A DNA stretch of 64,000 bases from contig CM037861.1 of the NCBI GenBank assembly GCA_021292105.1, forward strand, positions 50,804,920-50,868,919. Reading direction: 5' to 3'. Origin of the DNA: Anadara kagoshimensis. Taxonomy: Eukaryota > Mollusca > Bivalvia > Arcoida > Arcidae. The notes under the pieces are model-generated. The model was not told the origin of the DNA and searched no databases. It worked only from the letters and a program-made list of their open reading frames with translations. This document shows positions 1,017-55,209 of the stretch, piece after piece. Made by a program: the position numbers and the translations under genes. Each line of letters opens with the position of its first letter. The stretch's first letter is position 1.

Positions 1017-1210
1017 CAATGTGGAGGCTACCTGATGAATACTATAATTAATTTTGGTGATTATCTGGAAGAAGATGTATTAGATAAAGCCAGAGAGAAT
1101 GCTGTTAAAGCTGATTTAGTGATTGCTCTTGGTACAACTTTACAAGTTTCCCCAGCTAACAGTCTAGTTGAAATGGGAAAACAACCTGTGAGACTGGTCT
1201 TATGTAACAG
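1017..1210 (+). CDS. Sirtuin exon (zinc site and NAD-binding motif)
   Basis: The acceptor is a T-rich tract ending in CAG at 1014-1016 and the donor is ACAG|GTGTGT at 1211. The exon encodes QCGGYL through RLVLCN plus two bases of the next codon. An internal ATG at 1035 is in frame but is not the gene start, because the reading frame and the family match continue upstream of it. Confidence 0.85.
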
Positions 1211-14429: not shown

Positions 14430-17400
14430 GTAAAATATAAAAAATTATTCATATTTTGTGTAGACACATGTTGTATGTACATTTTAAGAATACATTTGCA
14501 GCTTTGAGCAAATTTTTTGGTATCGAGTACGTGTTCTGTAAAGCATCTAAGCTTCTAAAAGGCCTTGATTTATATAGTAATCACTGGTCATAATGGGATC
14601 TGTTGGTTCATTACCATGTAATCAATACTTTATAACATTTTTGCAGGAGATTTTGGAAAACTTTTAAAATCTTAAACAGTATGATCCCTATTTTATTTGT
14701 ACAGTAAAAAGGTCAGTAGATATGAGAAGTTACTGGAATATTATAGTGGTAGTTAAAAAGTGAAATGGCTGTTTATTGATAAACTTTCCAAGTAAAAGAA
14801 TGTTTTTTTAAACTTTATTAAATCATTTATAGTTGCCACCTTCATAATGCTTCACACACATATTGTTATCAGTTATTATTTACCTATTTAGAGTATATGG
14901 GTGCACCAGCAGCCACAAACACCATGAATCCTAATACACTAAATCAAGGACAAGTAGGACAGGTGGGACAAGTTGGCCAGGTTGGACAAGTTACTCAGAT
15001 GGGACAAGTTACTCAGGTGGGACAAGTTACTCAAGTGGGACAAGTTGGTGGTGGTATGCTACAAAACGTACCTCAGTCTGTGGTACAGAATGTAGCTAAT
15101 CCCACTGTTTACAGTCTAGGAACCACTACCCCACCTGTAGCCACACCCCCACAATACACAGTACAACAGTTAGCAGCAGTAGGACTACAACAAGCTCAGG
15201 TATACATATACATGTACTATTATGTATTGTCTGTAAAAAAAACGCCTAAAGTTGTAATATTGGAATGTGGTGTTCTGTTTAGTTTTAATGACATTTAGTA
15301 AACTATTGACAGTTGAGCCTGTCTATGAAGACCCTATAATGGTTTTAAAAACCAGTCTTAACATTGATATACAATGTACTTGTAATGGATAGTAAGAGTA
15401 CAATGTCTAGCAACAAGCACAAGCAGCCCTACAATCACCAGCTCCACTAGTTGCCGTTATGCCACAGCCAAGCATAGCAATGCCAATGGCACTATCCATG
15501 ACTCTGAGTTGTACTAAATTTTATCTGTCTTTTGTAGCAACAAGCACAAGCAGCTCTACAGTCATCAGCTCCACCAGCTGCCGTTATACCACAGCCAGGC
15601 ATAGCAATGCCCACAACACTAGCCACAACTCAAGTTGCCACAGTTAGTTATCCATCTCCAAGAGTAGCCACACCAGGACCTCAAAAACAGCGAGTGTTCA
15701 CTGGACACATCACAAAACTTCATGATAATTTTGGTTTTGTTGATGAGGATGTGTTTTTCCAAACAAGGTATGGTAATTTGCAATATTGATAGTTGATTTG
15801 TAATATGTAATAAAACAAGAATGATCTTAACCCTAAAACTTTTAAAACTATAAAAATACCCCCCGCTCCCAAAATTCATCGGATTAAATTTTTAAATAGG
15901 AGGTGCACATCTACATTATATCACAAAGATTGTGTGAAAGTTTCATGAAAATCCATTGAAGGGTTTAGGAGGAGTTGCGGATAAGAGATAGGTACCCTAA
16001 GGTGTAATGGAAGGCGGACGGACACACAGACGGACACCCCTATCACTATATACCCCCACTTTTTAAGCGGGGGTATAATAATATACTTCAGTTAAACAAT
16101 TTTTACCTAGTGTAAACCCTGAATCTGATATTCATTGGAATGATTTTGATTTTTTTATTAGATATTTGTAGCTAAAATTCTGTGAATTGTTAAAGCAGAC
16201 TCATATGTGTATTTACATGTATTGAATTTTTCTTCTTCTAGCTACTTACAATTACATTATAACTTTTCTATTGACAACAAACATTATAACTTTTCCATTG
16301 ACATCAAACTTGTTCATTATAACTTTTCCATTGATATCAAACTTGTTCTAATCTTACATCGCTTGAATCTAGGTTTCCATAAATTTAAAATAATTAGTAG
16401 CCAAATTTCCAAAATTTGTGAAAATATAGTCCTTTTTAAAGTATTTTTCAACAAATTTGCTAAAATAGGCTACTTTTTGAAAGAATTCCTCAGAAATTAG
16501 TAGCCAATGGCGATTTTGGCTACCAGGAATGGAAACATGTAGTTGAATGATTATACTAGTTAGTGCTTTCATAATTAAAATTAAAACAGTTAAATCTAGA
16601 AATAGCACCCTAAAATTGGCATAATTTTTTTAACACATGTCAGTTAGATTTCTGAAATTATTGTACCTATGCAAGCCCAATATGAATAGGTGGATGAGTT
16701 GAAACTTACACTATAACGTTTTGTGATGTTTGTATTTTCAGTTGTGTGAAGGGCTCTATACCTAAAGCAGGTGACAGAGTTTTAGTAGAAGCATCATTTA
16801 ATCCCACTATGCCATTTAAATGGAATGCCACTAGAATTCAAGTTTTGCCAAATCAGGTAACTAAATGTCTGTATGTCTTATTTTATATTATGCCAGAAGA
16901 ATGGAGATATATAGTATTAGTTGTCCCATAACATTGAATCTGTTACTCATCTCAGGTTACTGAAGGATTGACTTCATACTGTGTGAACCTGTTTATTTGC
17001 TGATCATTAAAAAATTTTTGGAATTATTCCATAAAAATTGATCTCATTTTGTATCTTCTTTAAAACTTTATAGAAGTTAGCTGCTTATAAAATCTCTTTT
17101 ACTTGTTTACATTGACCATTGGTTTAACTTTATTTCATTAATTGCCCTGAATAAATTTGTAATATTATAGTAACTTCATGTTAATGTGGACATTTATTTA
17201 CTGATAATGACTTAATAGATGTATTTTATTTACAGCCAGGTAGTCAGGGACAGGGTATTGGAAAGCCAGGAGCTCCAGGTTCAGGCATTCAGTCTAATGT
17301 TGCTCAACAGATGAATGTACCAGCCCTGTTGCCAGGACACCGTGGACCTCAGCCATTAATGCGTATGCCATCATCACAAGGCCCAGGTAATTATTGACAC

Positions 17401-26400: not shown

Positions 26401-29400
26401 AACAGGAAGAAGAAAAGAGAAAGAAAGAAGAAAGAGAAAAGGCTTCACTAGAAAGGAAATATGTTCTACCTGATAACCCTGCCATACTTGTACATCCAAA
26501 CGCCGTAGCTAAGAGTGGAAAGTTTGATTGTACTGTTACCTCACTCAGTGTACTACTGGATTATAGACCAGAGGACAATAAAGAACACTCATTTGAGGTA
26601 CAGACCTGCCAACCCTTATGATTTTTCCGTAGTTCTTACTGAAAATTACCAAAAAATTTTAATTCTTACGATTGTACGGATACGGCATGTTTTCTTCCGA
26701 TTTTTATCTTTTCCGGATATTCTCTTTACATTTCCAAACCATGTTTTAGAAAACTGTCCTGGAAACGCTTTTAAGGCATGCAGATTGCAATAAAGCATTA
26801 AAAAGATAGCCATCGATCACTGTCGTTACGCAAAGTCGGAAGAGCGTTTGATAGTAAAGCATTTCAAAGACATTCTGAAGTGTAATAATCAAGCATCTGT
26901 GTGATTTTAAAGTTTCTCGCGGTAACTGTCACATCTCAAAAATGAGCAAACGCAAAGCAGATATGGCGGCAGGGCTCAAAATAAGGGTGAAGTTGGGCGA
27001 TATCTTCGCCCTGTTTCCAAAAACTTCGCCCTAAACTGTCCCAAAAGCGAAGTTCTAGTCGCCCTAAGTTTTGACAAGTGTATATTTAACCCCTAAGGCG
27101 CCTCTTATGTATTACACACACAGGTAACTCCCTATATATCCAGGTGTTTTAATCCGATAATTAGCTTAAACTGAGATCACCATGCATGTCATGGATTCAT
27201 CAACATCAACCTGTTGACTGGATATTTGCCATAAAAAACGTGTGTACCCCAATAAACGGGGGGGGGGGGGGGGGGATGTATTGAACAAAATGGTAGATCG
27301 TTTTTTTGTATGAAAATTTAATAAAACAACAGACCCTCACAGAATGTTGCCTTTTAACAAAGGAATCCATAAATAAAAGCATTTTCTGATAGAATGATTG
27401 CAAATAAGTAGTATCATCTCTAGAAATTGGGAGTCGGACACAGCAGCCATGTTTGTTGCCATCAACACATGGTTGACAAGGGGGATAACTCAAAAATAAT
27501 GGTGTATATATTGATTCATTTATTGATTTTTATTTTTTTTTTTTCATTTATTAATTTTACTTCTTAATATGTTGTTAATCTTTACATTATTTAAAAAAAT
27601 GTTTTAAAGAAAATTGTACATGTATTTCACATTTACATTGAAATCTTAAGACATTTAGTGATGTGATATGATCAATGCATTAATTTTGCTTCAATGAAAA
27701 GAAAAATTAAGTACAATAATTTTCTAAAATTATTTTCAGTATTGCTACACCAAGCTTATACATATAATAACTCTGCACATAGCAAAAAAAGAAGATAATT
27801 ATGAAGAAATTTACATTATGATTTATTTGGATTCAATAAGTAATATTACAATTTAGGTAATATGCAAGTCTTCTGTAGGGATACTCCCATTTAAAGTCAA
27901 ACATATTGGGAACATGCATCGCCACGTAAATTTCACTCGCGATGGAAAAACTTCTCCCTGTTTTGAAAAACTTCTCCCTAATCTTGGCTGAGGGAGAAGT
28001 CACTTCTCCCTGTTCCAAAATCTAATTTTAGCCCTGGGCGGATTATGGAGAGTCGGCTCCGAAAAAAAGGAATCAGTATGCCCAAAAAGCTAAACCGACG
28101 TATTTTTCAACGTGGTCCTTCATAAAACGGAGCAAAAAAGGGAGATTTTTTCGTCAATTGCAGTATATGTCTAGTTGATCTAATTATCGCACATGGCGGT
28201 ATTGACGATATCCGGCGATAAAAAAAGACTTGTAAAATCTTACTGAAACTGGTGCAATCTTACTGAAAAATGTCCTTGATCTTACGGTATAGTTGCCCAG
28301 GGGGTTGGCAGGTCTGGAGGTAGATAAGAAACAGATTTTGTTACTGCGGATATGTTGCTTATTTACCAGAATGTAATGTTGTCTTAATTCTCAAATTCAT
28401 CAGTTTGACATGAATACTTATTTATAAATGTAAGCTTAACCAAGTATAAAGCATGATAAAGCAAGTTCTCGGTTTAAAACTGAGACTGAAACACATTATA
28501 TTCCAAGGTTTGTGAATAATCATCTGGTTCACCCAATGTCAGTATAATGTGACTGGAAGAATGGTATGCTTTTCTTTGACATACTGTATTTATGAGCTAG
28601 CACATTGAAGTCGCTCTAAGTGTGTGCTAGTACAAACTAGATCATAAAAACATACTTGGACATCTTACATGCACACAGACCTGTTCTTAGATTAATCCCT
28701 AGATATCAATAATTTCCAATAGCAGAAAAATTGCTGATGTGGCATTAGACAACATTGCATTACTTGTTGAAGTTCCCAGTTTAAAGATGATTTACATTTT
28801 GTATTTTAGGTTTCCTTGTTTGCTGAATTGTTTAATGAAATGTTAATGAGAGATTATGGCTTTGAGATATACAAATCACTTGTTAAAGCTCCAGAAAAGA
28901 AGGAAGAAGAAAAGAAAGATAAGGATAAAGACAAAAAATCAGAGGATAAAAATTCAAAGGTATGAGGACTTAAAATATTGTCATGGTAACCATGGTCTGT
29001 ATGTTGTCATAGTGACCATAGTCTGTATGAGGACTTATAATGTTGTCATGGTGACCATAGTCTGTATGTTGCCATGGTGACCATAGTCTGTATGAAGACT
29101 TATAATATTGTCATGGTGACCATAGTCTGTATAAAGACCTATAATGTTGTCATGGTGACCATAGTCTGTATAAAGACTTAAAATGTTGTCATGGTGACTG
29201 TAGTCTGTATGAAGATTTATAATGTTGTCATGGTGACCATAGTCTATATAAAGACTTATAATGATGTCATGGTGACCATAGTCTTTATACCCGGTATCTG
29301 TTGATGGATGTAAGCCTACTTTTCTTCAACCAAAATACTGACTGAATGATTTTCAGAATTTAATTTCCTATGATCAATTTATTCTATGAATTGGGTGATT

Positions 29401-32400
29401 AATAGGAGTCAATAGTTCCGAAGGCCTCAATCTCTCAATACATATTACAGTAAAACATGCTTATTTTGTCCCTTGTTTACTCTACTGCCATACTTTTTGT
29501 CATGGTTTGTCAAGTCCCAAATTAAATCTCTTGTACATATTTTCTTTTGATCAAAGCTTCAATGATGAATTTTAATGTTCCTTTTATAATGTCCAAATTT
29601 AGCTTAACAAATGGTGGTGATATACATGTATTGGCATTTTATTGTGTATGTAGGTGAAAGCATTGCAGCCTTCATATGAATCAGAGTTATTTGTTGAGTG
29701 GAAGATACCACCGGGTTTGGTATGACATATTTGGAATGCCTATTTAATAGTTGTTTGTTGTTAAATTTTGTTTTCTAAGAAAGTTTTGGATTTAGATTAA
29801 TTTCACATACCTTGTTGAATGTTGATATACTGAAAAAAAGAAACTGTACAAATGAAAGCCATGGCTTATCATTGGATATCACTGAAATGTATACCCTGAT
29901 TTTAAGAATTCCATTATTATTTTGATTTTGACATGTCTTTAACCTGAAAGAGCAATTATTCATGTACTATAATTACCTATGTCGTATATATATTGAGGAA
30001 GAATTTCCAATTATGTCCTCCTATTGGCTGATCTAAATGACCAAATAGAATAATTTTGAACACTTTTGTTAAAAATATTTTTCAAAAATTATACAAAGAA
30101 TTTAATGGGTATAGATACAAAAGGAAGTCTTTTCCATATTTATACATACAGTTAAACCAACAGTAATAGATATCTCTATATAAAGATCACCTGTGAATAG
30201 AGTACAGACAAATTTCACCACCTTTGTCTTTTACTATTTATATTATTTGAAACCAAGTAAAACAACCAGCTTTTAAAGGTAACTTTTTCTGGTCCCCATT
30301 GAGTGGCCTTTATAAATAGATTTCACCGTAAAATTATAAGTTATTATAAAATCTTTTTGAAGGAATTATAGTGTATTTTTGAGTTTCTTTTGTAGTTAAG
30401 TATATCATCATTCACACGGAATCACTAATCTGTTTATTGTTACATTTTGTATTACTGTATAAGAAAAAATTATTTCATTGTAAGGAATTTTCACGGTTCA
30501 AACTGTAGGGAAAGTGAACTAAGGGAAATAATTTTTGCTGAAAAGATATATTTGCGGTACAAGTGTCACAGTGAAAATCATGAATATTTTTTCCTCATGA
30601 ATGTTTCTTCTAATACAGTAATATAAATTTCTGGGAAATTCTTCACTCTTACAGTTAAACATCATTTTATCTCAACACCATTGGTTAAGTTTAAGTTTGG
30701 GCATTACCGGCTGTTTGGACCAAAAATTGAGGATGTCTTTACATATATATAAAGGAAAAACGTAGAAGATTTGGATTTTGGGACTTTGAAAAACATTTAT
30801 CCATAAATGAAGCATTAAAAATAGGCAATAAACATTACAATGAGGTTTAACAATATGTTAATGAGTCCTTTATTATTTTATTAGGAACCTGTAGTAAAAA
30901 AGAAGAAACTAGATGAAAAAGATAAAAAAGAAGGAGACAAAAAGGTAATGAAGATGTCCAAAGACTATAAAGTACATGTATTAGAAGGTGTAGAAGTGAA
31001 TGTTTGCAGTTTGTAATTGTTTGCATTTAGAATTTTTTTGCCACAGAATGATTAAATTAAAGAATTACTTTCATGAACAAATCTTGAGCTAACTTTACAC
31101 GTACATCAAAACCTTGTTATAATGTCCTTCAGTAACTTTGCCACCTCACTTATCATCACAGTGTTTTGAAGTAACAAAATCCATTTCTTATATGTCTTTC
31201 TTCATAAATCTCCCTCAGTTTATCACCAAACCTGTTTATGATGCTAAAATTTGATTGGACAAATGGTGATGATGAATCGAGGTTCTGGTGTATTTGGTTA
31301 TATATACATAATTTGTTCAGCAAAGTTGTTGCTTTGTTTAAATCTACTGCTAAAAATAAAGTTAATAATGTGTGTTTCATCTAACTTTCATCATGGCTTA
31401 ATTGCCAAAAATACCTGAATTTTAAATTCTTACAGTGCAGTCCAACCCGCCTTAAAGGTCACCTCTATATAACAGCCACCTGCTTTTAAAGGCCAATAGA
31501 ATTTTATCCCAATTGTTCTGTTTAGCTCATCTGAGCACAAGTGAGCTATTGTGACCAGTCTTTGTCCATCGTGGGTCGTCCAATGTGCGTCAACTTTTGC
31601 TTGTTAACACTCTAGAGGCCACAATTTTTGTTATATCTTCATCAAACTTGTCCAGGATAATGTTCAGGTCAAAAGCTAAGTCAAGACCGTATATGGGTAA
31701 TGTTGGGTCAATAAGTAGGTCACTAGGTCAAATCATAGAAAAACCTTGTTAACACTCTATAGAGTCCATGGTTTTTGTCTAATCTTCATATAATTTGTCC
31801 AGAATGATGTTCATGACCAAAGCAAGGTCAAGTTCGTATATGGGTCATGTTGGGTTAATAAGTAGGTCACTAGATCAAGTCATAGAAAAACCTTGTTAAC
31901 ACTAGAGTCCATAGTTTTTGTCCAATCTTCATATAATTTGTCCAGAACAATGTTCATGACCAAAGCAAGGTCAATTTCGTATATGGGTCATGTTGGGTCA
32001 ATAAGTAGATCACTAGACAAAATCAAAGAAAAACTTTGTTAATACTCTAGAGTCCATAGTTTTTGTCCAATCTTCATATAATTTGTCCAGAACAATGTTC
32101 ATTACCAAAGCAAGGTCAAGTTCGCATATGGGTCATGTTGGGTCAATAAGTAGATCACTAGACCAAATCAAAGAAAAACTTTGTTAACACTCTAGAGTCC
32201 ATATTTTTTGTCCAATCTTCATATAATTTGTCCAGAACAATGTTCATGACGAAAGCAAGGTCAGGATCATATATGGGTCATGTTGGTTTAATAAGCAAGT
32301 CACTAAATCAAATCAAAGAAAAACCTTGTTAATACTCTAGAGTCCATAGTTTTTGTTCAATCTTCATATATTTTGTCCAGAACGATGTTCATGACCAAAG

Positions 32401-35400
32401 CAAGGTCAAGTTTGTATATGGGTCATGTTGGGTCAATAAGTAGGTCACTAGGTCAAATCATAGAAAAACCTTGTTAACACTCTAGAGTCCATATTTTTTG
32501 TCCATCTTCATATAATTTGTCCAGAACGATGTTCATGTCTAAAGCAAGGTCAAGTTCATATATGGGTCATGCTGGATCAATAAGTAGGACACTAGGTCAA
32601 ATCATAGAAAACCTTGCTAACACTTTAGAGTCCACATTTTCTGTCCATTCTTCATATAATTTGTCAAAAACAATGTTCAGGACAAAAGCTAGGTCAAGTT
32701 CATGTGTTCTTATAATGAACACTGTTAACCCTCTATTCATGACATTATTGGAAAATGTGTAGAATTGAATTTATTCTCATGTAAGCGCCCAGAGCCTCAT
32801 GGCCCTCTTGGTTCATATTATTTGAACCTGTATATAAAGGACACCTGTCCATAAAGGCCACTTTTACTGGTTCCCTTGGTGGACTTTATAGACAGGTTTG
32901 ACTGTATTTTATGGTAACAGATTTTAAAAATTGAATAAGACTTGCATGACATTTACATCTGATATTGATTGTAATGTAAATTGTTTGTTTTAAGGACACA
33001 AAAATTAAGAAAGAAAAGGATGATGAAAAGAAAACTGAAGGAGAGAAAAAAGAAGAAATAAAAGAAGAGGAAGAAGAAGCTGAAGATGATGATGAAAAAG
33101 GTAAAATATTGATAAGATATGCCATTTTTTCTAGTAAATAACTGTATGCTATAGCTGGCCAATACAAAAGTGCACACCAGCTTATGTCATTCCCTCAGCA
33201 TGATTATTAAATGTTATATGTTGTGTGATAGGTTAAGGTTTGTTTTATAAGAGATGAACAGGTATGAGCTATGGTGTCAGTTTTGCACAGTAGATGTAAA
33301 TTGTATGATTTAGAGGCATATTGCTTTGACTATTTTTGCCATGAGTTTTATTTACATTAGCTTGAAGATTCATATTTGGCACCCTTTCATATTTGGTTTG
33401 ATAACCTTGACCCTGAATAACTTTATATTTAAATTCCTGTCTTGCTGATATAGAGAGGTGTAAAAACACCCAAATGTAAAAAAAAACAAAAAAAAACAGT
33501 TATGGATGGCATTTATGTAGGTCTTACCTCATATGCTATATAGAAATTATAAAAGTATATGTGATTAGCATTATGATCAGTATAACCATATGACTACATG
33601 TATGTATGTATAAACTCAATATAATAATTATTTTAGCTAAAAAAGATAAAGACAAGAAAAAAGAAAAGAAGAAATACACAACAATAGAACCAGCATTGTT
33701 GATGGCTTTTACATACTTTGATCAGAATCATACTGGATATATGTTAGACAAAGATGTAGAGGAAATCATACATACTATAGGTCTACAGCTGTCTCGAGCA
33801 CAGGTGAGTAAAATCTATATGTCTACAGCTGTCCAGAGCACAGGTTAGTAAAATCTATAGGTCTACAGCTGTCCAGAGCACAGGTGAGTAAAATCTATAG
33901 GTCTACAGCTGTCCAGAGCACAGGTGAGTAAAATCTATATGTCTACAGCTGTCCAGAGCACAGGTTAGTAAAATCTATAGGTCTACAGCTGTCCAGAGCA
34001 CAGGTTAGTCAAATCTATAGGTCTACAGCTGTCCAGAGCACAGGTGAGTAAAATCTATAGGTCTACAGCTGTCCAGAGCACAGTTGAGTAAAATCTATAG
34101 GTCTACAGCTGTCCAGAGCACAGGTGAGTAAAATCTATAGGTCTACAGCTGTCTTGAGCACAGGTTAGTAAAATCTATAGGTCAACAGCTGTCCAGAGCA
34201 CAGGTGAGTAAAATCTATAGGTCTACAGCTGTCCAGATCACAGGTGAGTAAAATCTATAGTTCTACAGCTGTCTCGAGCACAGGTGAGTAGAATCTATAT
34301 GTCTACAGCTGTCCAGAGCACAGGTTAGTAAAATCGATTGGTCTACAGCTGTCCAGAGCACAGGTGAGTAAAATCTATATGTTTACAGCTGTCCAGAGCA
34401 CAGGTAAGCACTGTCTATGGGTCTACAGCTGTCCAGAGCACAGGTATTTACTGTCTATAGATCTACAGCTGTCCAGAGCACAGGTATTTACTGTCTATGG
34501 GTCTACAGCTGTCCAGAGCACAGGTATTTACTGTCTATGGGTCTACAGCTGTCCAGAGCACAGGTATTTACTGTCTATAGATCTGCAGCTGTCCAGAGCA
34601 CAGGTATTTACTGTCTATAGATCTACAGCTGTCCAGAGCACAGGTATTTACTGTCTATAGATCTACAGCTGTCCAGAGTACAGGTATTTACTGTCTATGG
34701 GTCTACAGCTGTCCAGAGCACAGGTATTTACTGTCTATGGGTCTACAGCTGTCCAGAGCACAGGTATTTACTGTCTATGGGTCTACAGCTGTCCAGAGCA
34801 CAGGTATTTACTGTCTATGGGTCTACAGCTGTCCAGAGCACAGGTATTTACTGTCTATAGATCTACAGCTGTCCAGAGCACAGGTATTTACTGTCTATAG
34901 ATCTGCAGCTGTCCAGAGTACAGGTATGTAAAATCCATATGTCTACAGCTGTCCAGAGCACAGGATAGCACGGTCTATAGGTCTACAGCTGTCCAGAGTA
35001 CAGGTATGTAAAATCCATATGTCTACAGCTGTCCAGAGCACAGGATAGCACGGTCTATAGGTCTACAGCTGTCCAGAGCACAGGTAAGCACTGTCTATAG
35101 GTCTACAGCTGTCAGAGTACAGGTATGAAATCCATATGTCTACAGCTGTCCAGAGCACAGGATAGCACGGTCTATAGGTCTACAGCTGTCCAGAGCACAG
35201 GTAAGCACTGTCTATAGGTCTGCAGCTGTCCAGAGTACAGGTATGTAAAATCCATAGGTCTACAGCTGTCCAGAGCACAGGTATTTACTGTCTATAGGTC
35301 TGCAGCTGTCCAGAGTACAGGTATGTAAAATCCATATGTCTACAGCTGTCCAGAGCACAGGATAGCACGGTCTATAGGTCTACAGCTGTCCAGAGTACAG

Positions 35401-38264
35401 GTATGTAAAATCCATATGTCTACAGCTGTCCAGAGCACAGGATAGCACGGTCTATAGGTCTACAGCTGTCCAGAGCACAGGTAAGCACTGTCTATGGGTC
35501 TACAGCTGTCCAGAGCACAGGTATTTACTGTCTATAGATCTACAGCTGTCCAGAGCACAGGTAAGCACTGTCTATAGGTCTACAGCTGTCCAGAGTACAG
35601 GTATGTAAAATCCATAGGTCTACAGCTGTCCAGAGCACAGGTAAGCACTGTCTATAGGTCTACAGCTGTCCAGAGTACAGGTATGTAAAATCCATAGGTC
35701 TACAGCTGTCCAGAGCACAGGATAGCACGGTCTATAGGTCTACAGCTGTCCAGAGTACAGGTAAGTTCAACCTACAATCAACAGCTGAAATCAACAGTAT
35801 GATTTGTAGCACAATGGATAGCTTCTTGATTCGTTGTGTCTTTGATTGGTCGTATGTGACGGCTCACTTTGCTATGTTATGCACCACCTTCCAACTCCCA
35901 CCAGGGACACATTCTAGTATGAGAAAGTCTTAGTTCATTTGTGGCAGCTTGGTGGTTTTCTTCACCATTCCAAAAGTGGATGCCTCCATAAAACATTTTT
36001 ATCTGGGATGAAAAACAACAATTCCAACTACATGTAATTCATTATACAATGTGTATATTGCATTTTTCATTTCAATGTACAAATGTGTGATATTTTAGTT
36101 GTATAGTTCCCAGCTATTAGTGTTGATGTCCAATGTAAAGGTTTTGATCTACATAATGTACTTCTTTATATAATGGTGGGTTGCTCTGTTTAGTTTTTCT
36201 AACACCTCTTGTGTAATTGTAGGTCAGAAAATTGGTTCAAAAGGTGGTGTCACGTGACGCTGTAAGTTACCGCAAGTTAACGGACAAACCTCTACCAGGA
36301 CAAGGGGATATGAAAGAAGAACCAGTTAAAGATGTTAAAGAATTTGATATAGAAACTTTAGCACAAGGTAATTTTATTCTGCAAATACTTACATACTATA
36401 TACATATGACTGTATATTTGTAGCTAGTCTTTATAAAGTGTTGAAGAGTTTATTTAACAATGCAGGTCTCAGATAAAACACTTGGCTGCACACCGTGACC
36501 ATGATAAAACAGCCCAGCGATGAGTGGAAGTCTATTCACACTTGGCCCAGTGCAAAGTAGATTATTTGCTGGATGTTGTACCTGATTCTAATTAAAGTGT
36601 CAAAATATTCTAAGATAAAAAAAAATACATAAAGCAAAATTAGTTTTGCTCGTGTTAAGTAACAAATACTTGGTGCCAAGTAAATAACACCTGATTACTT
36701 GTCACACTGCCAAGCAGTTTCAATAATGTTATATGAGGCCTGCAATTGGTCAAAAAGTGTGAGATGTGGCAAACCATTTTTTGCTTCAGGAAAGTTGAAA
36801 CTCTTTTTGTACCTCAGGAAGGTGTGGATATTGAACACCTGAGGCACAGACCCCCAGTTTATTCATGTTTTTGAAGTATAAAAAGTGGATTATTTATTGA
36901 GAGTGCACAGGAGACATTATTGGTTAACATGCATGTAACTTATATTTGTAACTATGGCATTTGTGTAGTGGAATAAAATGAGGGAGGGGGTACTTTTCTA
37001 TCTGGCTACAAAAAAAATTCAGATTTGAAACAATGTTTGAGTGATTAATTTTATGTTTTAAAGATTTTATCTTTGGTACATGTTATATTTTTATTATTTT
37101 ATTTGTTCAGGTAATTTAGAGCTAACACAAAAAAGAGTCTCCACACCTGATAAAGGTGTTACTAAAGGTAAATCGACACAGAAAAAGTCTGTAGGTGATC
37201 AGGGAGATGATGGTACTCCATCTGATTTTGTTAACTACAAAGGATCCATGCTAGATATAGAGAGTGTGATGCAGAGAATGGAAAAAATAGAAAAAACAAG
37301 AGAAGAAATGGAAAAACAAATGCAAAATCTAACTAAAGAGAAAGGTATAAATTGTTAAAATATGAGAATTTAAACAAACTGCGAAATCATTAATTTTCAT
37401 GGTGTCCAATTTTCATGGTTCTAAGAAAAAATGCCATTATATGAGGTGGTAAATTTATTGTTTGTAGTTACTGTATATAATAATAGGTTTGTATTTTACA
37501 CTATTTCATTGACATGGGAGTCTGTTGGTCAATGCATATTTAAAACAACAAAAATTGGGACAAAATTTCATTTAATGATTTCACAGTATTTAAGTTTTGT
37601 CATGAAATCCTGGTTTCTATTTACATTGTTTCATCTTTCAGTGTTTTAATATCTGTAGCCCCTATTTCCAATTGCAGGCTAGATTGTGTCAGCCTTTCCA
37701 GGTGAAAATTTACTTCACCATTAATTGTTGGAACTTGATTGCATTTGTTATATCCAGCAGCAATATGACAGGAGCATTATCTTTTCATATCTGCTACTCA
37801 TTTTTTTTTGACTGTCCATTTCTTGTACATAATGCTAGAATTATCTTATGTGTTTGTTATCAATGTTAATGATTTTGAAAACCATGTTTACTTAAGATCA
37901 AGTATGAATTTGAGTGTTTTTGTTCTGCAGTTCTCGAGTTAATAACAAAAATATGTTTTAGAAAAAAACCGAAATGGACCTTTTCCAAACTCAGAAATGT
38001 TGTTACCTATCCCAATAAATTTACAATTATAGAAGCAAGTTTTAGTTGAAGCTTGCTAATCATCTGGTATCATTAAAGTTCTGTGTTGTTTTATATGAGT
38101 TTTAATTTCACTTCACAGAATCCTTGAAGAAAACGTCTGAGACTAAAGAAGAGGCGTGTCAGAAGATGACAGCAGAAATTAAACAACTTAAACAGAAACT
38201 TCTAGTCCAAGAAAAAGTCACAAATAACTCTGAATCTACAAGAAAAAATACTTATCTGCTTTAA
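14375..38264 (+). CDS. CCAR1: CCAR1 orthologue (cell division cycle and apoptosis regulator 1), 21 coding exons
   Basis: CCAR1 proteins are nuclear co-regulators that bind Mediator and p53/nuclear-receptor transcription complexes and associate with the spliceosome. The conceptual protein is 1,129 residues as read, and about 1,156 if a one-base slip near its end is discounted. Human CCAR1 is about 1,150. In order it has the N-terminal start MSQFTGTKNPPWA, a Q/V/T/P-rich region (to about 165), an S1-like RNA-binding domain (QKQRVFTGHITKLHDNFGFV to VLPNQ, about 170-236), an R/S-rich stretch (about 290-350), a DBC1/Nudix-like domain (YTNLYIPSDFF to FAEVRY, about 372-550), a SAP motif (about 635-670), a LAIKA-like segment (YVLPDNPAILVHP to EIYKSL, about 730-795), a K/E-rich linker, an EF-hand-like domain (LMAFTYFDQNHTGYM, about 915-975) and a C-terminal coiled coil. 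All exon phases agree when exon 9 uses a GC donor. Start: ATG at 14375, in a short exon matching the family N-terminus. Confidence 0.95.
14892..15199 (+). CDS. CCAR1: CCAR1 coding exon 2 (GQV repeat region)
   Basis: It encodes EYMGAPAATNTMNPNTLNQG, then an imperfect run of GQV and TQV triplets (14945-15050), then a Q/T/P-rich segment ending LQQAQ. The donor CAG|GTATAC gives phase 0. The run comes from reiterated GGACAAGT/GGACAGGT-type units and looks like a coding minisatellite. Confidence 0.9.
15411..15511 (+). pseudogene. Duplicated 5' half of CCAR1 exon 3
   Basis: After an acceptor-like GTCTAG at 15405-15410, the sequence QQAQAALQSPAP through PQPSIAMP closely copies the start of the exon at 15538, but no donor is visible before the copies diverge near 15511. 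The offset between copies is 127 bp, so reading through would shift the frame. It is probably a non-functional partial exon copy. Confidence 0.7.
15538..15767 (+). CDS. CCAR1: CCAR1 coding exon 3 (S1-like domain, first half)
   Basis: The acceptor is TTTTGTAG. The exon encodes QQAQAALQSSAPPAAVIPQP, then VATVSYPSPR and QKQRVFTGHITKLHDNFGFV, ending DEDVFFQT. The donor is AAG|GTATGG, phase 2. It begins the S1-like domain. Confidence 0.93.
15880..16080 (+). repeat. Intronic dispersed repeat with GGCGGACGGACACAC
   Basis: CTCCCAAAATTCATCGGATT is followed by GTGTGAAAGTTTCATGAAAA, then GGCGGACGGACACAC and a terminal TACCCCCACTTTTTAAGCGG hairpin-like end. It belongs to a common type of mollusc intronic repeat; the family name is not known to me. 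Confidence 0.5.
16250..16350. repeat. Short tandem repeat, about 33 bp x 3
   Basis: Three copies of CATTATAACTTTTCCATTGA followed by ATCAAACTTGTT, in the intron before exon 4. Confidence 0.8.
16742..16856 (+). CDS. CCAR1: CCAR1 coding exon 4 (S1-like domain, second half)
   Basis: The acceptor is TATTTTCAG; the first base completes a serine codon. It encodes CVKGSIPKAGDRVLVEASFN and then PTMPFKWNATRIQVLPNQ, the highly conserved end of the S1-like domain. The donor is CAG|GTAACT, phase 0. Confidence 0.95.
17236..17386 (+). CDS. CCAR1: CCAR1 coding exon 5 (G/P/Q-rich linker)
   Basis: The acceptor is TTTACAG and the donor CCAG|GTAATT (phase 1). It encodes PGSQGQGIGKPGAPG through MPSSQGP, a low-complexity linker. 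Support comes from splice sites and phase; the sequence itself is poorly conserved. Confidence 0.8.
17878..18133 (+). CDS. CCAR1: CCAR1 coding exon 6 (R/S/K-rich)
   Basis: It encodes a G/R-rich start, FDRDREKKRDQARDRRERMD, then RSRSKSPPKK and PRYVVQVPKLSFDM. The arginine/serine-rich stretch and the PRY-V-Q-PKLSFD segment have counterparts just before the DBC1 domain in the family. The donor is AT|GTAAGT, phase 2. Confidence 0.9.
18578..18803 (+). CDS. CCAR1: CCAR1 coding exon 7 (DBC1/Nudix-like domain start)
   Basis: It encodes RYTNLYIPSDFFNANFSW, FPLVRPFQLGHHCNFHVLH and VLDPPDADHLYSAK, the diagnostic start of the catalytically dead Nudix-like DBC1 domain. The donor is AAA|GTAAAT, phase 0. 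Confidence 0.95.
18880..19110. repeat. Dispersed repeat R3 in intron
   Basis: GTGGGTGTAGCTAGCTATAC and CTCATTGGAAGTTCACATTT have relatives at 46978-47130 and 56330-56500, including the following AAAGTTTTACT/TTGTGATTGTGATTTG block. No coding content. Confidence 0.5.
19301..19538. mobile_element. MITE with GACCCAGTTGTT ends, copy 2
   Basis: It is the second copy of the element at 7321. The left end GACCCAGTTGTTTGAAGCTT matches the inverse of the right end ending AACTGGTC. It lies about 50 bp before the acceptor of CCAR1 exon 8. Confidence 0.7.
19592..19872 (+). CDS. CCAR1: CCAR1 coding exon 8 (DBC1/Nudix-like domain core)
   Basis: It encodes LEELYHKSCAMAQDP, HPTRLIHFLVGQKG, MAIGGPWSPALDG and LIKTAIRTTQALTGIDLSAC, ending TQ plus two bases of a tryptophan codon. 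The donor is TG|GTAGGT, phase 2. Confidence 0.95.
21012..21219 (+). CDS. CCAR1: CCAR1 coding exon 9 (end of DBC1 domain); 3' boundary uncertain
   Basis: The acceptor is TTACACAG. The exon encodes YRFAEVRYLRPEEMHKGR, VETTVIFLPDVWSC and TPTRIEWGTM, then YKKQLQKKLAAVSKDENSQ. The next exon requires phase 0. No good phase-0 GT donor is present: GCA|GTATCC at 21196 and CAA|GTTTAT near 21333 are weak. CAG|GCACTT at 21220 would be a GC-AG donor and gives the best family alignment. Without splicing the frame runs to a stop at 21349. Confidence 0.8.
21352..22960. other. CCAR1 intron 9, AT-rich
   Basis: No exon is recognised. About 22165-22300 holds a copy of dispersed repeat R2 (GGGACAGATCATAATAGTGA then GAGAAAGTCTGTTAGTT). 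The remainder is AT-rich without a signal I can name. Confidence 0.5.
23222..23299 (+). CDS. CCAR1: CCAR1 coding exon 10 (acidic linker)
   Basis: The acceptor is TTATCTAG. It encodes EEDEGGEIEGKLDPTHYSEL and DPKVMK, matching the acidic linker plus the LDPK-MK motif just before the SAP domain. The donor is AAA|GTAAGA, phase 0. Confidence 0.93.
23397..23590 (+). repeat. Dispersed repeat R2 in intron 10
   Basis: GTAGTATGAGAAAGTCAGTT, TGCTGAAGGTGGGTGATGTC and a tail CTTGACTGGAGTGTAAAACT match the R2 copies elsewhere in the window. Confidence 0.6.
24187..24321 (+). CDS. CCAR1: CCAR1 coding exon 11 (SAP domain)
   Basis: It encodes IIDLRKELESRTLSSKGLKS and QLIARLTKAMKTEQ, a clear SAP DNA-binding motif with the L-x-x-x-L-x-x-R-L-x-x-x-G-x-K-x-x-L-x-x-R-L spacing. 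The donor GTA|GTAAGT is strong, phase 0. Confidence 0.95.
24376..24710 (+). mobile_element. tRNA-derived SINE in CCAR1 intron 11
   Basis: It starts only about 55 bp after the exon 11 donor. The head reads GGTAGGTCATTTGGTAGATT and GGCTCGAACCCC, the body TGTATAATGCCATCAGCGCA, and the tail GACTGGGACGTTAAACACCA. The head has lost part of box A, so this copy is old. Confidence 0.88.
24725..24908 (+). repeat. Dispersed repeat R4 (AACCTGTCTATAAAGG family)
   Basis: AGAACCTGCCTTAAAGGTCG, then TTTAAAGGCC, TATTTGAACCTGTATATAAG and a terminal TTTATAGACAGGTTTGA. Relatives lie at 30150-30332, 31435-32910 (split), 62216-62400 and 62398-62587. Confidence 0.65.
25712..25792 (+). CDS. CCAR1: CCAR1 coding exon 12 (E/K-rich)
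   Basis: The acceptor is TGTTTTTAG and the donor GAG|GTAATA. It encodes SEQAAQSEEVKKNLAEAEEK then SEDKKKE, a charged linker downstream of SAP. Phase 0 at both ends. Confidence 0.85.
26406..26597 (+). CDS. CCAR1: CCAR1 coding exon 13 (LAIKA-like segment start)
   Basis: After an E/K/R-rich start it encodes YVLPDNPAILVHPNAVAKSG, KFDCTVTSLSVLLDYRPEDN and KEHSFE, a strongly conserved block. The donor is GAG|GTACAG, phase 0. Confidence 0.95.
26598..28809. other. CCAR1 intron 13 with G-tract and diffuse repeats
   Basis: No exon is recognised. Two blocks on opposite strands share a theme: 26985-27060 (TCGCCCTAAACTGTCCCAAA) and 27895-28030 (ACTTCTCCCTGTTTTGAAAA), perhaps one nested element. A run of about 19 Gs at about 27259-27277 is followed by GATGTATTG. 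The stretch 26610-28310 begins and ends with AGACCTGCCAACCC and its inverse GGGGGTTGGCAGGTCT, which suggests a 1.7-kb element with inverted ends. Confidence 0.5.
28810..28959 (+). CDS. CCAR1: CCAR1 coding exon 14
   Basis: It encodes VSLFAELFNEMLMRDYGFEI, YKSLVKAPEK and then a K/E/D-rich run ending NSK. The first half is highly conserved. The donor AAG|GTATGA (phase 0) is the start of a minisatellite. Confidence 0.95.
28960..29292. repeat. 39-bp minisatellite beginning at the exon 14 splice donor
   Basis: The intron opens GTATGAGGACTTAAAATATT. Units of about 39 bp follow, built from TGTCATGGTGACCATAGTCT and GTATGAAGACTTATAAT, roughly seven to eight copies, some shortened. Each unit repeats a GTATGA/GTATAAA donor-like segment. 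Confidence 0.85.
29654..29719 (+). CDS. CCAR1: CCAR1 coding exon 15 (small, less conserved)
   Basis: The acceptor is GTATGTAG and the donor TTG|GTATGA. It encodes 22 residues, VKALQPSYESELFVEWKIPP plus GL. Phase 0 at both ends means it could be skipped without a frameshift. It has no counterpart that I recall in human CCAR1, so it may be lineage-specific. Confidence 0.6.
30150..30332 (+). repeat. Dispersed repeat R4, degraded copy
   Basis: ATATCTCTATATAAAGATCA, TATTATTTGAAACC and GGCCTTTATAAATAGATTTC follow the R4 order. Confidence 0.5.
30885..30944 (+). CDS. CCAR1: CCAR1 coding exon 16 (K-rich)
   Basis: The acceptor is TTTATTAG and the donor AAG|GTAATG. It encodes EPVVKKKKLDEKDKKEGDKK, resembling the nuclear-localisation-like KxKRRK/DDKDKKE linker in CCAR1. 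Phase 0. Confidence 0.8.
31100..31300. mobile_element. Short TIR element related to 3843-4008
   Basis: The left end is ATCAAAACCTTGTTATAATG and the right part is ACAAATGGTGATGATGAATC then GAGGTTCTGG, parallel to the copy at 3843. Confidence 0.5.
31435..32910 (+). repeat. Dispersed repeat R4 split by an insertion
   Basis: The left half at 31435-31520 (AACCCGCCTTAAAGGTCACC to CCCAATTGTTCTGTT) and the right half at about 32815-32910 (TTATTTGAACCTGTATATAA to TTTATAGACAGGTTTGACTG) are the two halves of one R4 copy. They are separated by the tandem element at 31521-32813. Confidence 0.75.
31521..32813. mobile_element. Inserted element containing about 8 tandem units of ~146 bp
   Basis: It starts AGCTCATCTGAGCACAAGTG and ends near CCTCATGGCCCTCTTGGTTC. 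Inside, a unit of about 146 bp (GTTAACACTCTAGAGTCCAT, ATCTTCATATAATTTGTCCA, AAAGCAAGGTCAAGTTCGTA) repeats about eight times from 31600 to 32720. Elements of this look are widespread in bivalve introns. Its class is not clear. Confidence 0.75.
32995..33100 (+). CDS. CCAR1: CCAR1 coding exon 17 (K/E/D-rich)
   Basis: The acceptor is TTTTAAG and the donor AAAG|GTAAAA (phase 1). It encodes DTKIKKEKDDEKKTEGEKKE then a run of E and D residues. Accepted on splice sites, phase and composition. Confidence 0.82.
33637..33803 (+). CDS. CCAR1: CCAR1 coding exon 18 (EF-hand-like domain, first half)
   Basis: It encodes AKKDKDKKKEKKKYTTIEPA, LLMAFTYFDQNHTGYMLDKD and VEEIIHTIGLQLSRAQ, the conserved EF-hand-like domain. 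The donor is CAG|GTGAGT at 33804, phase 0. The last 23 bases of this exon are the first part of the 40-bp repeat that fills the following intron. Confidence 0.95.
33781..35763. repeat. 40-bp minisatellite spanning an exon end and its splice donor, about 50 copies
   Basis: Each unit reads GTCTACAGCTGTCCAGAGCA then CAGG and about 16 bases of intron-like sequence. The first unit is the genuine end of exon 18 and its donor. Thirty-three units follow in exact 40-bp register to 35100, then one unit of 37 bp, fifteen more of 40 bp, and a final partial unit ending CAG|GTAAGTTC at 35758-35766. Most units keep CAG|GT with GTGAGT, GTTAGT, GTATTT, GTAAGC or GTATGT; about six have CAGGATAGC and lack GT. 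Subtypes cluster in blocks (GTGAGT/GTTAGT first, GTATTT in 34440-34900, mixed afterwards), as expected from local duplication. Confidence 0.97.
35795..36020 (+). repeat. Dispersed repeat R2 after the splice-donor array
   Basis: TAGCACAATGGATAGCTTCT, TAGTATGAGAAAGTCTTAGT and a tail near ATCTGGGATGAAAAACAACA match the R2 family. Confidence 0.55.
36223..36367 (+). CDS. CCAR1: CCAR1 coding exon 19 (EF-hand-like domain, second half)
   Basis: It encodes VRKLVQKVVSRDAVSYRKLT then DKPLPGQGDMKEEPVKDVKE, continuing directly from LSRAQ of exon 18. The donor is CAAG|GTAATT, phase 1. Confidence 0.93.
37111..37344 (+). CDS. CCAR1: CCAR1 coding exon 20 (start of coiled coil)
   Basis: The acceptor is TTGTTCAG. 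It encodes a K/T/S-rich stretch, then VNYKGSMLDIESVMQRMEKI and EKTREEMEKQMQNLTKEK, matching the family's coiled-coil entry. The donor is AAAG|GTATAA, phase 1. Confidence 0.92.
38119..38264 (+). CDS. CCAR1: CCAR1 coding exon 21 (terminal), apparent frameshift near the end
   Basis: The acceptor is CTTCACAG. It encodes ESLKKTSETKEEACQKMTAE, IKQLKQKLLVQEKV and ESTRKNTYLL, stopping at TAA 38262-38264. At the six-A run 38243-38248 a shift of frame would continue with LSALMESKEHLNAMLASVTD and stop at 38342-38344, a helix-rich end like that of other CCAR1 proteins. A one-base deletion, real or from sequencing, is likely. Confidence 0.85.
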
Positions 38265-48900: not shown

Positions 48901-51330
48901 TACGCTTCTATAACACAGAAGTTCTATAGATCGAACACCTCTCTAACCCAGCAGACACTTCTCTATCCCAGCCTTTTTATATAGCGAACACCTCTGACCC
49001 AAACGTTTTATAAATCGGACACCTCTTTAACATAGACATTCCTTAACCAAGACGGCCTATAGACCGAACACCTATCTTACCCAGACGTTCTATAGATGGG
49101 GTCAACTCTCTAAAACAGACATTCAATAGATCAGACACCTCTAACCCAGACGTTTTATAGATCGGACACCTATCTTATCCAGACGTTTTATAGATCGGAC
49201 ACCTCTAACCCAGACGTTCCAAAGATCGGACACCTCTCTAACCCAAAAGTTCCACAGATCGGACACCTCTCTAACACAGACATTCCATAGATCGGACACC
49301 TCCTGTCCAGACGTTCTATAGATCGCAAACCTCTATAACCCAGATGTCCTATAGATCGAACAAATATCAACCCAGACGTTACATATACCGGGTACTTCTA
49401 ACACAGATGTTCTATAGATCGAACAACCCCGACTTACTATAGATCAGGTGCCTCTCTTAACCCAGAAGTTCTAAAAGTCGGCCACCTCTCTAACCCAGAC
49501 GTTTTATGGATTTTTCACCTCTCTAACCCAGACATTCCATATATCGGAGACGTCTAACCCATAGATCATTCGCCTCTTACGTAGATATGCCATAGATCAG
49601 ATACCTCTCGAACTCGAATGTTTAATAGATCTGTTACCTCTCTAACCTGGTCGTTCTATAGATCGGACACCTCCTACCCAGACGTTACATCTCTAACCCA
49701 AGTGTTCTATAGATCAGACATCTCTTGAACCCAGACGTTCCATAGATCGGTCGTCTTTCTATCCCACACATAAAATAAAACGGTCAACTCTCGAACTCAG
49801 ACGTTCCATAAATCGGTCACTTCTCGACTCAAGACGTTCCGTAGATCGGACATTTCGATCTCAGACGTTCCATGGATCTGTCACCTCTCGATCCCCAGGC
49901 GATCAATAGTACGGTCAACTCTTGAACCCAGACGTTCCATAGATCGGACACCTCCCTAACCCTAACGTTTAATCTCTTATCCATGCATTCCGTAGACCGG
50001 ACACCAATTTAACCATGTCTAATGTGATGTGCCACAGTATTATAATATTATTAAACTTATAATCAAGTTTAGAAAATACCTAAAAACTATCCCCTCTCAA
50101 TGATAGAAATTTTAATACATAGATATATATACGCTTCAATGGTCGGGTTTGTGTACTACTTCCTTTTGTGCCCCTGGCTATTAATTTCAATGTAAAAAAA
50201 ATAAAAACTGATTTTCCACAAAAATGTTCAAAATGGCTAAATCCCATTTTAAGTTTTTTTTCAGACAAAATTAAAATTTTAGTGAAAGGTGTATAAATGG
50301 AATTTAAAAAACACTAGACACGCCTACTGCCAAGATTAAAATGACACACCCATACAGGAGCAGCCGAATAACTGGCCACCCCTTTACTCAACTAGATGTC
50401 TTTAAAATTTAATAAGTTGGTCAATACATACAGGGATCATTCATATGAATAGACAATAACTACCGTAATATTAGTCATATTTATGAATGACGAATTAGCT
50501 ATTTTGGTTGTGTCATATACCATTTTTTGAATTTAATCATAAAATACATTCAAAAAATGGTATATGACAGTTGTATTATCCAGAAAATAATCCACCGACA
50601 TATTAATCGTAGTTACAGCTACACCATCTGTAAATTCATGATGTGTTATAACTGTATATGTCCTTATTTAAATATGTATGTAGGTAAGGGATTTACACAT
50701 GTATTGTATACATGCGATCTATGAAACATGTTCAACTGCATTTCATAATAAACATAGTGTCCAACACAGGGGTCAGTTTCTTTATATCGATAATCTTTAA
50801 ATAAAAATACACACGGCATATAAAAAGAGGGCAATGAAGCTGACTCTGTAGCCCCCATCATCTACTTGCATGGCTATGTAAACTGTTTCTTTGTGGGCAC
50901 TGCTTTTGTGGTGTCACCAGAGACGTCTATAACTATGCGACTACACGTCTCTTGAATCCGGTGACATAAGTTGTTTTAGTATACAAAGAAAATAGTAAAC
51001 ATTTGATCGATCTACGGACACATGTACAGCTGGAGTTACAAGGTTATTTACACGTATAAGTAATGATGTTTCGTCACGTATCAGGTAATCATGTTACCTG
51101 AACCATGTTGACATGTCTAACTAACACTTACCTGGGGGGATACTATATGTATAACATTTTCTCCACATTCCAAAATTATAGGTATATCGTTCTTTTATCG
51201 TCGTATTACTGTTACCACTAGCGTCCACTTTATACCAATAATCCGTTACTATCCCTGTCAACATTAACGCTAAAGACGCTAAAATCAAAAATAAAACTAA
51301 AAATAACAAACATAACTGTCCTTTCCCCAT
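45709..51330 (-). CDS. Claudin/PMP22/EMP-like four-transmembrane protein, 3 exons
   Basis: The 193-residue protein is encoded on the minus strand by exons 51132-51330, 46677-46832 and 45709-45935. It starts MGKGQLCLLF at ATG 51330-51328. Four hydrophobic segments lie at about residues 7-27, 72-92, 107-131 and 152-176. The first extracellular loop is about residues 28-70, with YW at 31-32, an N-glycosylation sequon at N42, GMW at 54-56 and C59. The short C-terminal tail is DYNDINESGKYNTFM. Length, topology and W/C placement fit the PMP22/claudin superfamily, whose members form cell junctions or regulate membrane complexes. It lacks the full claudin GLW-C-C signature, so a Clc-like, EMP or TMEM47-type relative is equally possible. 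All splice sites are GT-AG and phases agree (1, 1). Intron 1 of 4.3 kb holds a SINE and a 33-bp minisatellite. Confidence 0.85.
46677..46832 (-). CDS. Claudin-like exon 2 (TM2 and most of TM3)
   Basis: The acceptor is CTTTAG and the donor GCAG|GTGAGG on the minus strand. It encodes LERSWVGCLIAGAAVQIFAI, LTLICGLWPAECKSLKRSSL and YLTASVLCLLA. Confidence 0.88.
46978..47130. repeat. Dispersed repeat R3
   Basis: CACCTGGCAGGTGTCGCTAC, CTTCCAGAGCACCTGGCCTC and GGTGGAAGTTCGCGTGTTTT resemble the copies at 18880 and 56330. Confidence 0.55.
47505..47700 (-). repeat. Dispersed repeat R2, minus orientation
   Basis: The left end AGTGGAGTGGGGTAATTGTA is the tail end; the right part AACTTTCTCACACTAGGG is the inverse of the CTAGTATGAGAAAGTT landmark. 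Confidence 0.6.
48156..48505 (+). mobile_element. tRNA-derived SINE, near full length, well preserved
   Basis: The head CACTGCGGTAGCTCAGTTGG with box A, then GGTTCAATCCCCGGCTGGGT with box B, then TATAATGCCA and tail GACTGGGACGTTAAACACCA, ending ACTCAACTCAAC. It is one of the best-preserved copies in the window. It lies in intron 1 of the claudin-like gene, antisense to it. Confidence 0.92.
48840..50010. repeat. 33-bp minisatellite, about 35 degenerate copies
   Basis: The unit is roughly GACACCTCTCTAACCCAGAC then GTTCTATAGATCG. Copies vary in length from about 25 to 36 bases and are more diverged toward the right end. Located in intron 1 of the claudin-like gene. Confidence 0.9.
50511..50569. 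repeat. Perfect inverted repeat, 22-bp arms, 15-nt loop
   Basis: Arms 50511-50532 and 50548-50569 are exact complements containing ATATACCATTTTTTGAAT. Small snap-back structure. Confidence 0.88.
51132..51330 (-). CDS. Claudin-like exon 1 (TM1 and first loop)
   Basis: It encodes MGKGQLCLLFLVLFLILASL through the first loop to SIPP plus one base. The donor on the minus strand is CCAG|GTAAGT. The first hydrophobic segment could also be cleaved as a signal peptide in isolation, but the family keeps it as TM1. Confidence 0.85.
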
Positions 51331-51339
51331 TTTGATTAT

Positions 51340-52126
51340 TTTACGAAATGTCCGATCCGTGTCAAAATGGACGGGATTAACGAATTTGTCACAAGTTTTT
51401 ACTTGCTGTGGGAGCGGCCATTTACATTGTGCAACTAATGAATGAACGATTTAACCAATGGAGTTATTATAACCGGTTTCTGCTTTTATAAATACCTGGA
51501 CAAGATGGCGTAAATTAAATCCGGGGGAACATTTCAAAATGTTATAACAAACACCTGATTTAAAGATTTAAAATCTATAGATGGTTGACAAAATTGAAAC
51601 GCACTATAGTTTTACACGACATTGTTTTTTTCCTTAATTCATTACAGCTATTATCCGACACCTAGGTGTCCCCAGCGTGACAGGTGTGAAAATGTAAACC
51701 CCCTGGAATTATCCTTACTTTTACAAACTAAGAAACACACGGCACGCTAAAAAAAGTCACGGAATTGAGCAACTTTTACTGAGCAAAATTTATGGATACT
51801 AGTTTCTGTTAACGGAAAGGTCAACAGACAACATAAATAAAAATAAAATTTATGATGACAAGTTTAATTTTGACAAGCCACAATTTAAAAAAAGCACACG
51901 ACAACTGAATAATTAATGGAAGAATAAGCAGATTTTTTCTTAATTCGCATTCTTTAAAAACACATGCAGATTCAGGCTGACCAATTCGACAGATTTGTCC
52001 GGTTTTTATTGACGGATTTTTAAAAAGAGATGGGAAAAAACAACAAGAACAACAAAAATCCGAATAAACGGATGGATAAAATGAAAAGGTCCAATTAGAC
52101 GGATTTTTTCCATTTTGACGTTTTTT
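51340..52126. other. Upstream flank of the claudin-like gene
   Basis: The 5' UTR and promoter of the claudin-like gene (minus strand) should lie here. GC is slightly raised near 51350-51520. No TATA-type or other element can be assigned with confidence, and there is no other gene. Confidence 0.4.
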
Positions 52127-53584: not shown

Positions 53585-53830
53585 ATTGTTTACAAAATAA
53601 GTTGTTAACTCAGGGATGTGGCAAGCTTAGGCTTATCAAGACCCTAAACATTTTATGTATGATATTTCTATCAATTTTGAAGTTAACCATCCATCTTCAG
53701 AAAACAAACTGACAACCTTCCTCATACTAGGATCTATCCGATTAGAATTTGTGGTGGCGATAGACGCAATGATCGGTTAGTCAGAACGCTCGACCACCGA
53801 TGCCACTAGTAGAAGCAAGGCTGGGACGTA
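53585..53830 (-). repeat. Dispersed repeat R2, minus orientation, running into a minisatellite
   Basis: AACTGACAACCTTCCTCATA and CTAGGATCTATCCGATTAGA are inverse R2 landmarks. Next to it, at about 53820, the first GCTGGGACGTAAAAC unit of the large array appears. Confidence 0.55.
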
Positions 53831-55206: not shown

Positions 55207-55209
55207 ATG

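Follow-up and report, generated by a model that had tools for sequence, protein, structure and literature searches.

We analyzed a 64,000-nucleotide stretch of the genome of the bivalve Anadara kagoshimensis (GenBank assembly GCA_021292105.1, contig CM037861.1, positions 50,804,920 to 50,868,919; hereafter the window), in which a large tandem array begins within the end of a coding exon of a gene that we read as CCAR1 and continues into the following intron (Table 1). Tandem Repeats Finder (TRF) called this array with a period of 40 bp, 49.9 copies, 88% matches, and a score of 2521, and a split by hand from position 33781 yielded 50 head-to-tail units, each 40 bp long except unit 34 (37 bp) and the open-ended last unit. 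The first unit runs from the exon end that codes for GLQLSRAQ into CAG/GTGAGT (the slash marks the splice junction), and the final unit terminates in CAG/GTAAGT. Where the TRF call starts, compared with the exon sequence, suggests that the unit consists of 29 exon-derived nucleotides (33775-33803, from CTATAG) and 11 intron-derived ones. CAG/GT is kept in 43 of the 50 units, i.e., 42 in register plus unit 34, where it is displaced by a deletion; GT is replaced by GA in six units and by TT in one. These results agree with an earlier reading of the sequence alone (the original prediction), which had described about 50 tandem copies of an exon end plus donor, at least 40 downstream copies keeping CAG/GT, and a final CAG/GTAAGT, although the 23 exonic bases it assigned to the unit have to be revised to 29.

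The array has the makeup of a splice-donor minisatellite, i.e., an array of 10-100 bp units in at least 10 copies: it comprises 50 units of 40 bp here and 63 in a second version of the gene described below, and downstream units carry donors (CAG/GT in 43/50 and 63/63 units, first unit counted). By sequence, the first unit also overlaps an authentic exon end and donor, since only the first donor leads the frame into the next exons and both versions have this exon intact. Just past the last unit, the 11-mer ATCAACAGCTG resembles the unit start, and the second version also matches at 9 of 11 positions at the identical offset, against a window background of 4 in 61,789 positions for an 11-mer picked afterwards with four offsets inspected. 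It may be one more, degenerate copy, or else the sequence that seeded the first slippage; local alignment of the whole segment past the last unit gave no significant further degenerate copy (p = 0.49 and 0.29).

The assignment of the gene to CCAR1 draws on Pfam matches in neighboring exons: among 10 peptides scanned, those from exons in the neighborhood of the source exon scored above cut-off for S1-like, DBC1 (two exons), SAP, and LAIKA, the SAP domain being what distinguishes CCAR1 from CCAR2. The source exon itself has an EF-hand match below cut-off only, and the next exon is without any Pfam match. CCAR1 is a splicing-linked protein. Fifteen coding exons were read in the window, the 3' end of one being uncertain, and the number 18 originally given to the source exon is tentative. 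The gene is flanked by an exon of a SIR2-family gene (978-1223, plus strand; Pfam above cut-off) and by a claudin-like exon (51124-51450, minus strand; Pfam below cut-off).

Table 1 Features of the CCAR1 locus in window coordinates (a slash marks the splice junction).
Feature	Position	Strand	Basis
CCAR1 coding exon, 167 nt, 3' end (...GLQLSRAQ) being the repeat source	33637..33803	+	Open frame, AG before, GT after
Tandem array, 40-bp period, 50 units	33775..35766	+	TRF and unit-by-unit listing
First donor, GTGAGT; sole donor from which the reading frame stays open through the next exons	33804..33809	+	In-silico splicing of all 43 GT donors
Example of a unit without donor (D type, CAG/GATAGC); six such units in the window array	34941..34980	+	Unit listing, donor scores
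Last donor, GTAAGT; top score, 12.6 vs 12.5 for the first donor	35761..35766	+	Donor scores
ATCAACAGCTG, 9/11 positions matching the unit start, 39 bases past the start of the last unit	35777..35787	+	Fixed-offset comparison
Next CCAR1 coding exon (VRKLVQKVVSRDAVSYRKLTDK...)	36223..36367	+	Acceptor TGTAG/GTCAG, open frame
39-bp array with its start exactly on the donor AAG/GTATGAGG of a different CCAR1 exon	28960..29289	+	TRF, exon reading, version comparison
Tandem duplication of 127 bp (TRF, 1.8 copies) that covers a 3' splice site and the start of an exon in CCAR1	15408..15638	+	TRF, sequence

A second version of the gene and its assembly context

Next, we searched the assembly from which the window comes (1.115 Gb in 36 contigs) with a piece of the array, in a non-exhaustive search that skipped very common words and scored the best candidates only. 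All 21 matches fell either in the window array or at C5:52601596-52604139 on the minus strand, and a protein query returned four matches, in the same two CCAR1 loci. The second locus, inverted and separated from the window by 1.76 Mb of the contig, carries a 63-unit array in which CAG/GT is kept in every unit. Across the codon-complete parts of the 15 exons, the two versions align without gaps or stops and differ by 62 synonymous and 4 nonsynonymous changes (synonymous divergence dS 0.105, nonsynonymous divergence dN 0.0018, dN/dS 0.017), the source exon showing one synonymous difference in 165 nt. The second version may be a paralog or the other haplotype: if the loci are haplotypes, the array is length-polymorphic, with 50 and 63 copies, and if they are paralogs, it has been kept in both.

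The unit makeup of the two arrays was compared after dropping window units 34 and 50 and the last unit of the second version. There were 27 distinct 40-mer types in 48 window units and 16 in 62 second-version units, only four of them shared. Positions variable at 5% or more were rarer in the exon-derived part of the unit than in the intron-derived part, both in the window (8/29 vs 8/11, Fisher 0.014) and in the second version (1/29 vs 5/11, Fisher 0.004), but no conclusion can be drawn from this pattern because units are copied as blocks and sites are not independent. We also considered coding constraint on the array copies, given that the exon and most units differ synonymously (TCT CGA vs TCC AGA or TCT AGA); this was not supported since other variants are mixed and include, in window units, GCA to GTA in eight and GGT to GAT in seven.

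Overall, the duplication extends, with breaks, from ~915 to 63414 in window coordinates; outside the 15 CCAR1 exons, identity was 94.8% across 41,059 sites. For this profile, four tandem arrays were masked, gaps were ignored, and only matches above 200 bits and windows with at least 100 usable sites were kept; only the 15 CCAR1 exons were removed, exons of other genes being still included. Identity in 500-bp windows ranged from 69.7 to 100%, and the stretches immediately 3' of the array (86% and 76%) were among the most diverged. Identities of 94–100% upstream of the array and 65–91% from just downstream of it to the next exon had raised the possibility of gene conversion ending at the array, which the region-wide profile led us to reject as a special feature. 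Separately, 55191-56142 is free of mismatches at the sites aligned between versions, vs 94.8% overall.

A long second copy was present at four of the eight assembly places tested, the window included. The other three were C5:51.50 Mb, paired with 51.94 Mb and inverted; C5:50.40, paired with 53.04, inverted and in two pieces; and C5:49.00, paired with 46.90 in direct orientation. At C5:30.00 and C1:10.00, no long second copy was found among 40 candidates scored, only short dispersed matches; at C5:51.64 there was none at E 1e-100 or better, and at C5:51.72 there was none either, the other matches being a ~520-bp dispersed repeat. The contig thus appears to hold a large inverted duplication at ~50.4-53.04 Mb, paired as 50.40/53.04, 50.84/52.60, and 51.50/51.94 Mb, with the near-central 51.64 Mb lacking a second copy; at the palindrome center, neither an N nor an inverted match was seen within 9.9 kb around the predicted axis. 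This large inverted duplication may be a real palindrome or retained haplotypes.

The same pairings, including the direct one, are what uncollapsed haplotypes might produce, and they bear on the possibility that the assembly misleads here, either through an inflated repeat length or because the second locus is a retained haplotype. We consider an artefact of this kind improbable. A dS of 0.105 would be high for alleles. A simple assembly error is also less likely because the two arrays are differently ordered: were the second locus the other haplotype, there would still be two sequences placed apart from each other, with 50 and 63 units in different order, which makes the array itself likely real.

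Donor strength and reading frame across the array

To evaluate the consequences of donor choice, every GT donor was joined in silico to the next two exons, with the last exon of the second version borrowed from the window. The reading frame stayed open from the first donor only (1/43 in the window, 1/63 in the second version), while all other donors led to a premature stop (42/42 and 62/62). For 40 window donors and 60 second-version donors, 50 nt or more separate this stop from the following exon junction; use of the second donor puts it within the next exon, and use of the third puts it 35 and 32 nt upstream of the junction. The first read-through stop is at 33846, as originally predicted, and corresponds to codon 70 counted from 33639. 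The ladder of donor sites proposed in the original prediction exists, and every distal step on it ends in a premature stop.

We then scored all donors, as had been suggested there, with a donor matrix from human genes, on which donors of at least 11.3 were classed as strong. The first donor scored 12.5, whereas the median over 13 other donors of the gene was 7.0. Many array donors proved strong, and strength was uneven between versions: 16 of the 50 window units were strong vs 53 of the 63 in the second version, and 29/50 vs 63/63 exceeded the gene's median. Conversely, 34/50 window units, 21 of them also below that median, and 10/63 second-version units fell short of the strong class. Pairing with U1, computed with its 5' end, was -11.0 kcal/mol or better for the strong donors.

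These data allow two candidate functions to be weighed. First, the array could act as a rheostat, i.e., a regulated ladder of poison donors whose distal members are used when splicing factors are plentiful, leading to stops and decay, so that CCAR1 would limit itself at a level tuned by copy number. The universal premature stops from distal donors, the many strong donors, and the occurrence of the array in both versions are all in its favor. Selection for such a device would, however, be expected to preserve donor number and strength between versions, and neither these nor the unit makeup are preserved, with a donor-less type in six window copies. A literature search on CCAR1 poison exons or splicing turned up, among the matches listed, SR-protein papers only, and one on CCAR1 with U2AF or FANCA splicing gave, among the matches listed, nothing of use here. 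We therefore regard a rheostat as very improbable, and give a still slimmer chance to a fully working one, in which near-identical donors would gauge how active U1 or SR proteins are and channel transcripts into decay, CCAR1 output being set by copy number and the two versions, with 16 and 53 strong donors, standing at different levels.

Second, RNA of the array could bind many U1 small nuclear ribonucleoproteins (snRNPs), either as a decoy competing for U1 or as a telescripting aid suppressing premature intronic polyadenylation. The strong donors and their computed U1 pairing would suit this role, especially in the second version. However, U1 pairing is not preserved across the array in both versions, as the window units below the strong class and below the gene's median illustrate, and U1 binding capacity accordingly differs; a single gene's 2.4-kb intron would also be small relative to the U1 pool. 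Among the explanations considered here, this is the one to which we give the least credence.

Origin and tolerance of the array

Of the three options in the original prediction, the U1 sponge and the splicing rheostat are thus weakened, and the third, a tolerated duplication, fits best. We favor, with a probability of roughly 80%, a tolerated splice-donor minisatellite born at the exon–intron boundary, whose first donor is used and whose leakage to other donors goes to decay. A 40-bp stretch over the CCAR1 exon/intron boundary would have been duplicated in tandem, and slippage or unequal exchange would then have spread it within the intron. The exon would stay functional through choice of its own first donor, which is strong for this gene, perhaps since the 167-nt exon is defined as such and each later donor would add ~40 nt to it. 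Occasional use of a later donor would add stops and send the transcript to decay, and copy number and donor strength would drift under little or no selection.

Several lines of evidence argue for this tolerated minisatellite, among them the anatomy of the array and its units, the 63-unit array in the inverted second locus, and the score of the first donor relative to other donors of the gene. Strong coding constraint on both versions means that both must splice productively if both are expressed, which only the first donor permits. In addition, the donor complement differs widely between versions, which share only the four 40-mer types mentioned above, and includes the donor-less type in six window copies; the difference in donor strength likewise argues against a selected sponge or rheostat.

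Several observations nonetheless weigh against it. GT is kept in all 62 extra units of the second version, 52 of them strong, as a functional reading would predict, and all 63 donors of that version lie above the median of the gene's other donors, vs 29/50 in the window. Eperon and others have reportedly found that a set of equal donors, once U1 sits on every one of them, tends to be spliced from its intron-proximal member; applied to this array, that rule would point to the wrong donor. Masking of the array donors by RNA structure, which might have favored the first donor, was rejected, the first donor not being the most open in predicted structures (for two window sizes, its openness ranked 39th and 40th out of 50 in the window and 21st and 52nd out of 63 in the second version). 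Finally, a human array in ABCA7 does have consequences, longer alleles going with more next-exon skipping and lower expression; it also offers a parallel for tolerance, in that retention of one unit amounted to 2 +/- 1% of isoforms, independent of array length (PMC5954066).

The window is rich in tandem repeats, including further large arrays at 31600-32701 (145-bp unit), 49044-49969 (~33-bp unit), and 53821-55209 (~37-bp unit). Two others sit at CCAR1 exon edges (Table 1), the counterpart of the 39-bp array near C5:52610251 in the second version being shorter and more degenerate. If expansion into exons is purged while introns can take it up freely, one would expect arrays to be pinned at exon edges.

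Known splice-donor minisatellites

The original prediction held that amplification of a splice junction at this scale was undescribed, which turns out to be wrong: human CBS, ABCA7, and IFI6 carry splice-donor minisatellites. By its title, a 2001 paper of Lievers is said to associate the CBS variable number tandem repeat (VNTR) with CBS activity, and the title of Turri 1995 reportedly presents IFI6 minisatellite repeat units as splice donors.

In CBS, a polymorphic 31-bp VNTR of 16-21 copies, c.1444_1467+7(16_21), has a unit that spans exon end and donor, with 24 exonic and 7 intronic bases as read from the variant name (PMC2630376). This is the layout of the CCAR1 array, albeit in a human gene, with a 31-bp unit and fewer copies. 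The ABCA7 VNTR lies in intron 18, has a 25-bp unit starting with the exon 18 donor in 12 to ~427 copies, and causes a frameshift when one unit is retained (PMC5954066). Like the CCAR1 array, it adjoins an exon and includes its donor, but its unit is on the intron side only and its greater length goes with the exon skipping and reduced expression noted above; the 39-bp array at 28960 of the window is closer to the ABCA7 layout than the 40-bp array is. The minisatellite of IFI6 (6-16) supplies multiple donors, its downstream units being used as such (PMC4526556), yet there the donors give isoforms, whereas distal donors of CCAR1 give premature stops only. Intron gain via tandem genomic duplication (AGGT) also involves a duplication carrying splice-site sequence (PMC4974935). 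The CCAR1 copies are contained in an intron, and the exon that follows it carries the frame on, whereas intron gain of that kind places a new intron within an exon. A literature search for splice-donor VNTRs in molluscs or bivalves returned nothing on topic among the matches listed.

Taken together, the CCAR1 array of A. kagoshimensis would represent a further case of a splice-donor minisatellite, outside human CBS, ABCA7, and IFI6. It offers a natural test of whether position, strength, or exon length decides donor choice: both gene versions are under strong coding constraint, they set 43 and 63 donors in exonic sequence that is nearly identical, and in each the first donor alone is productive.
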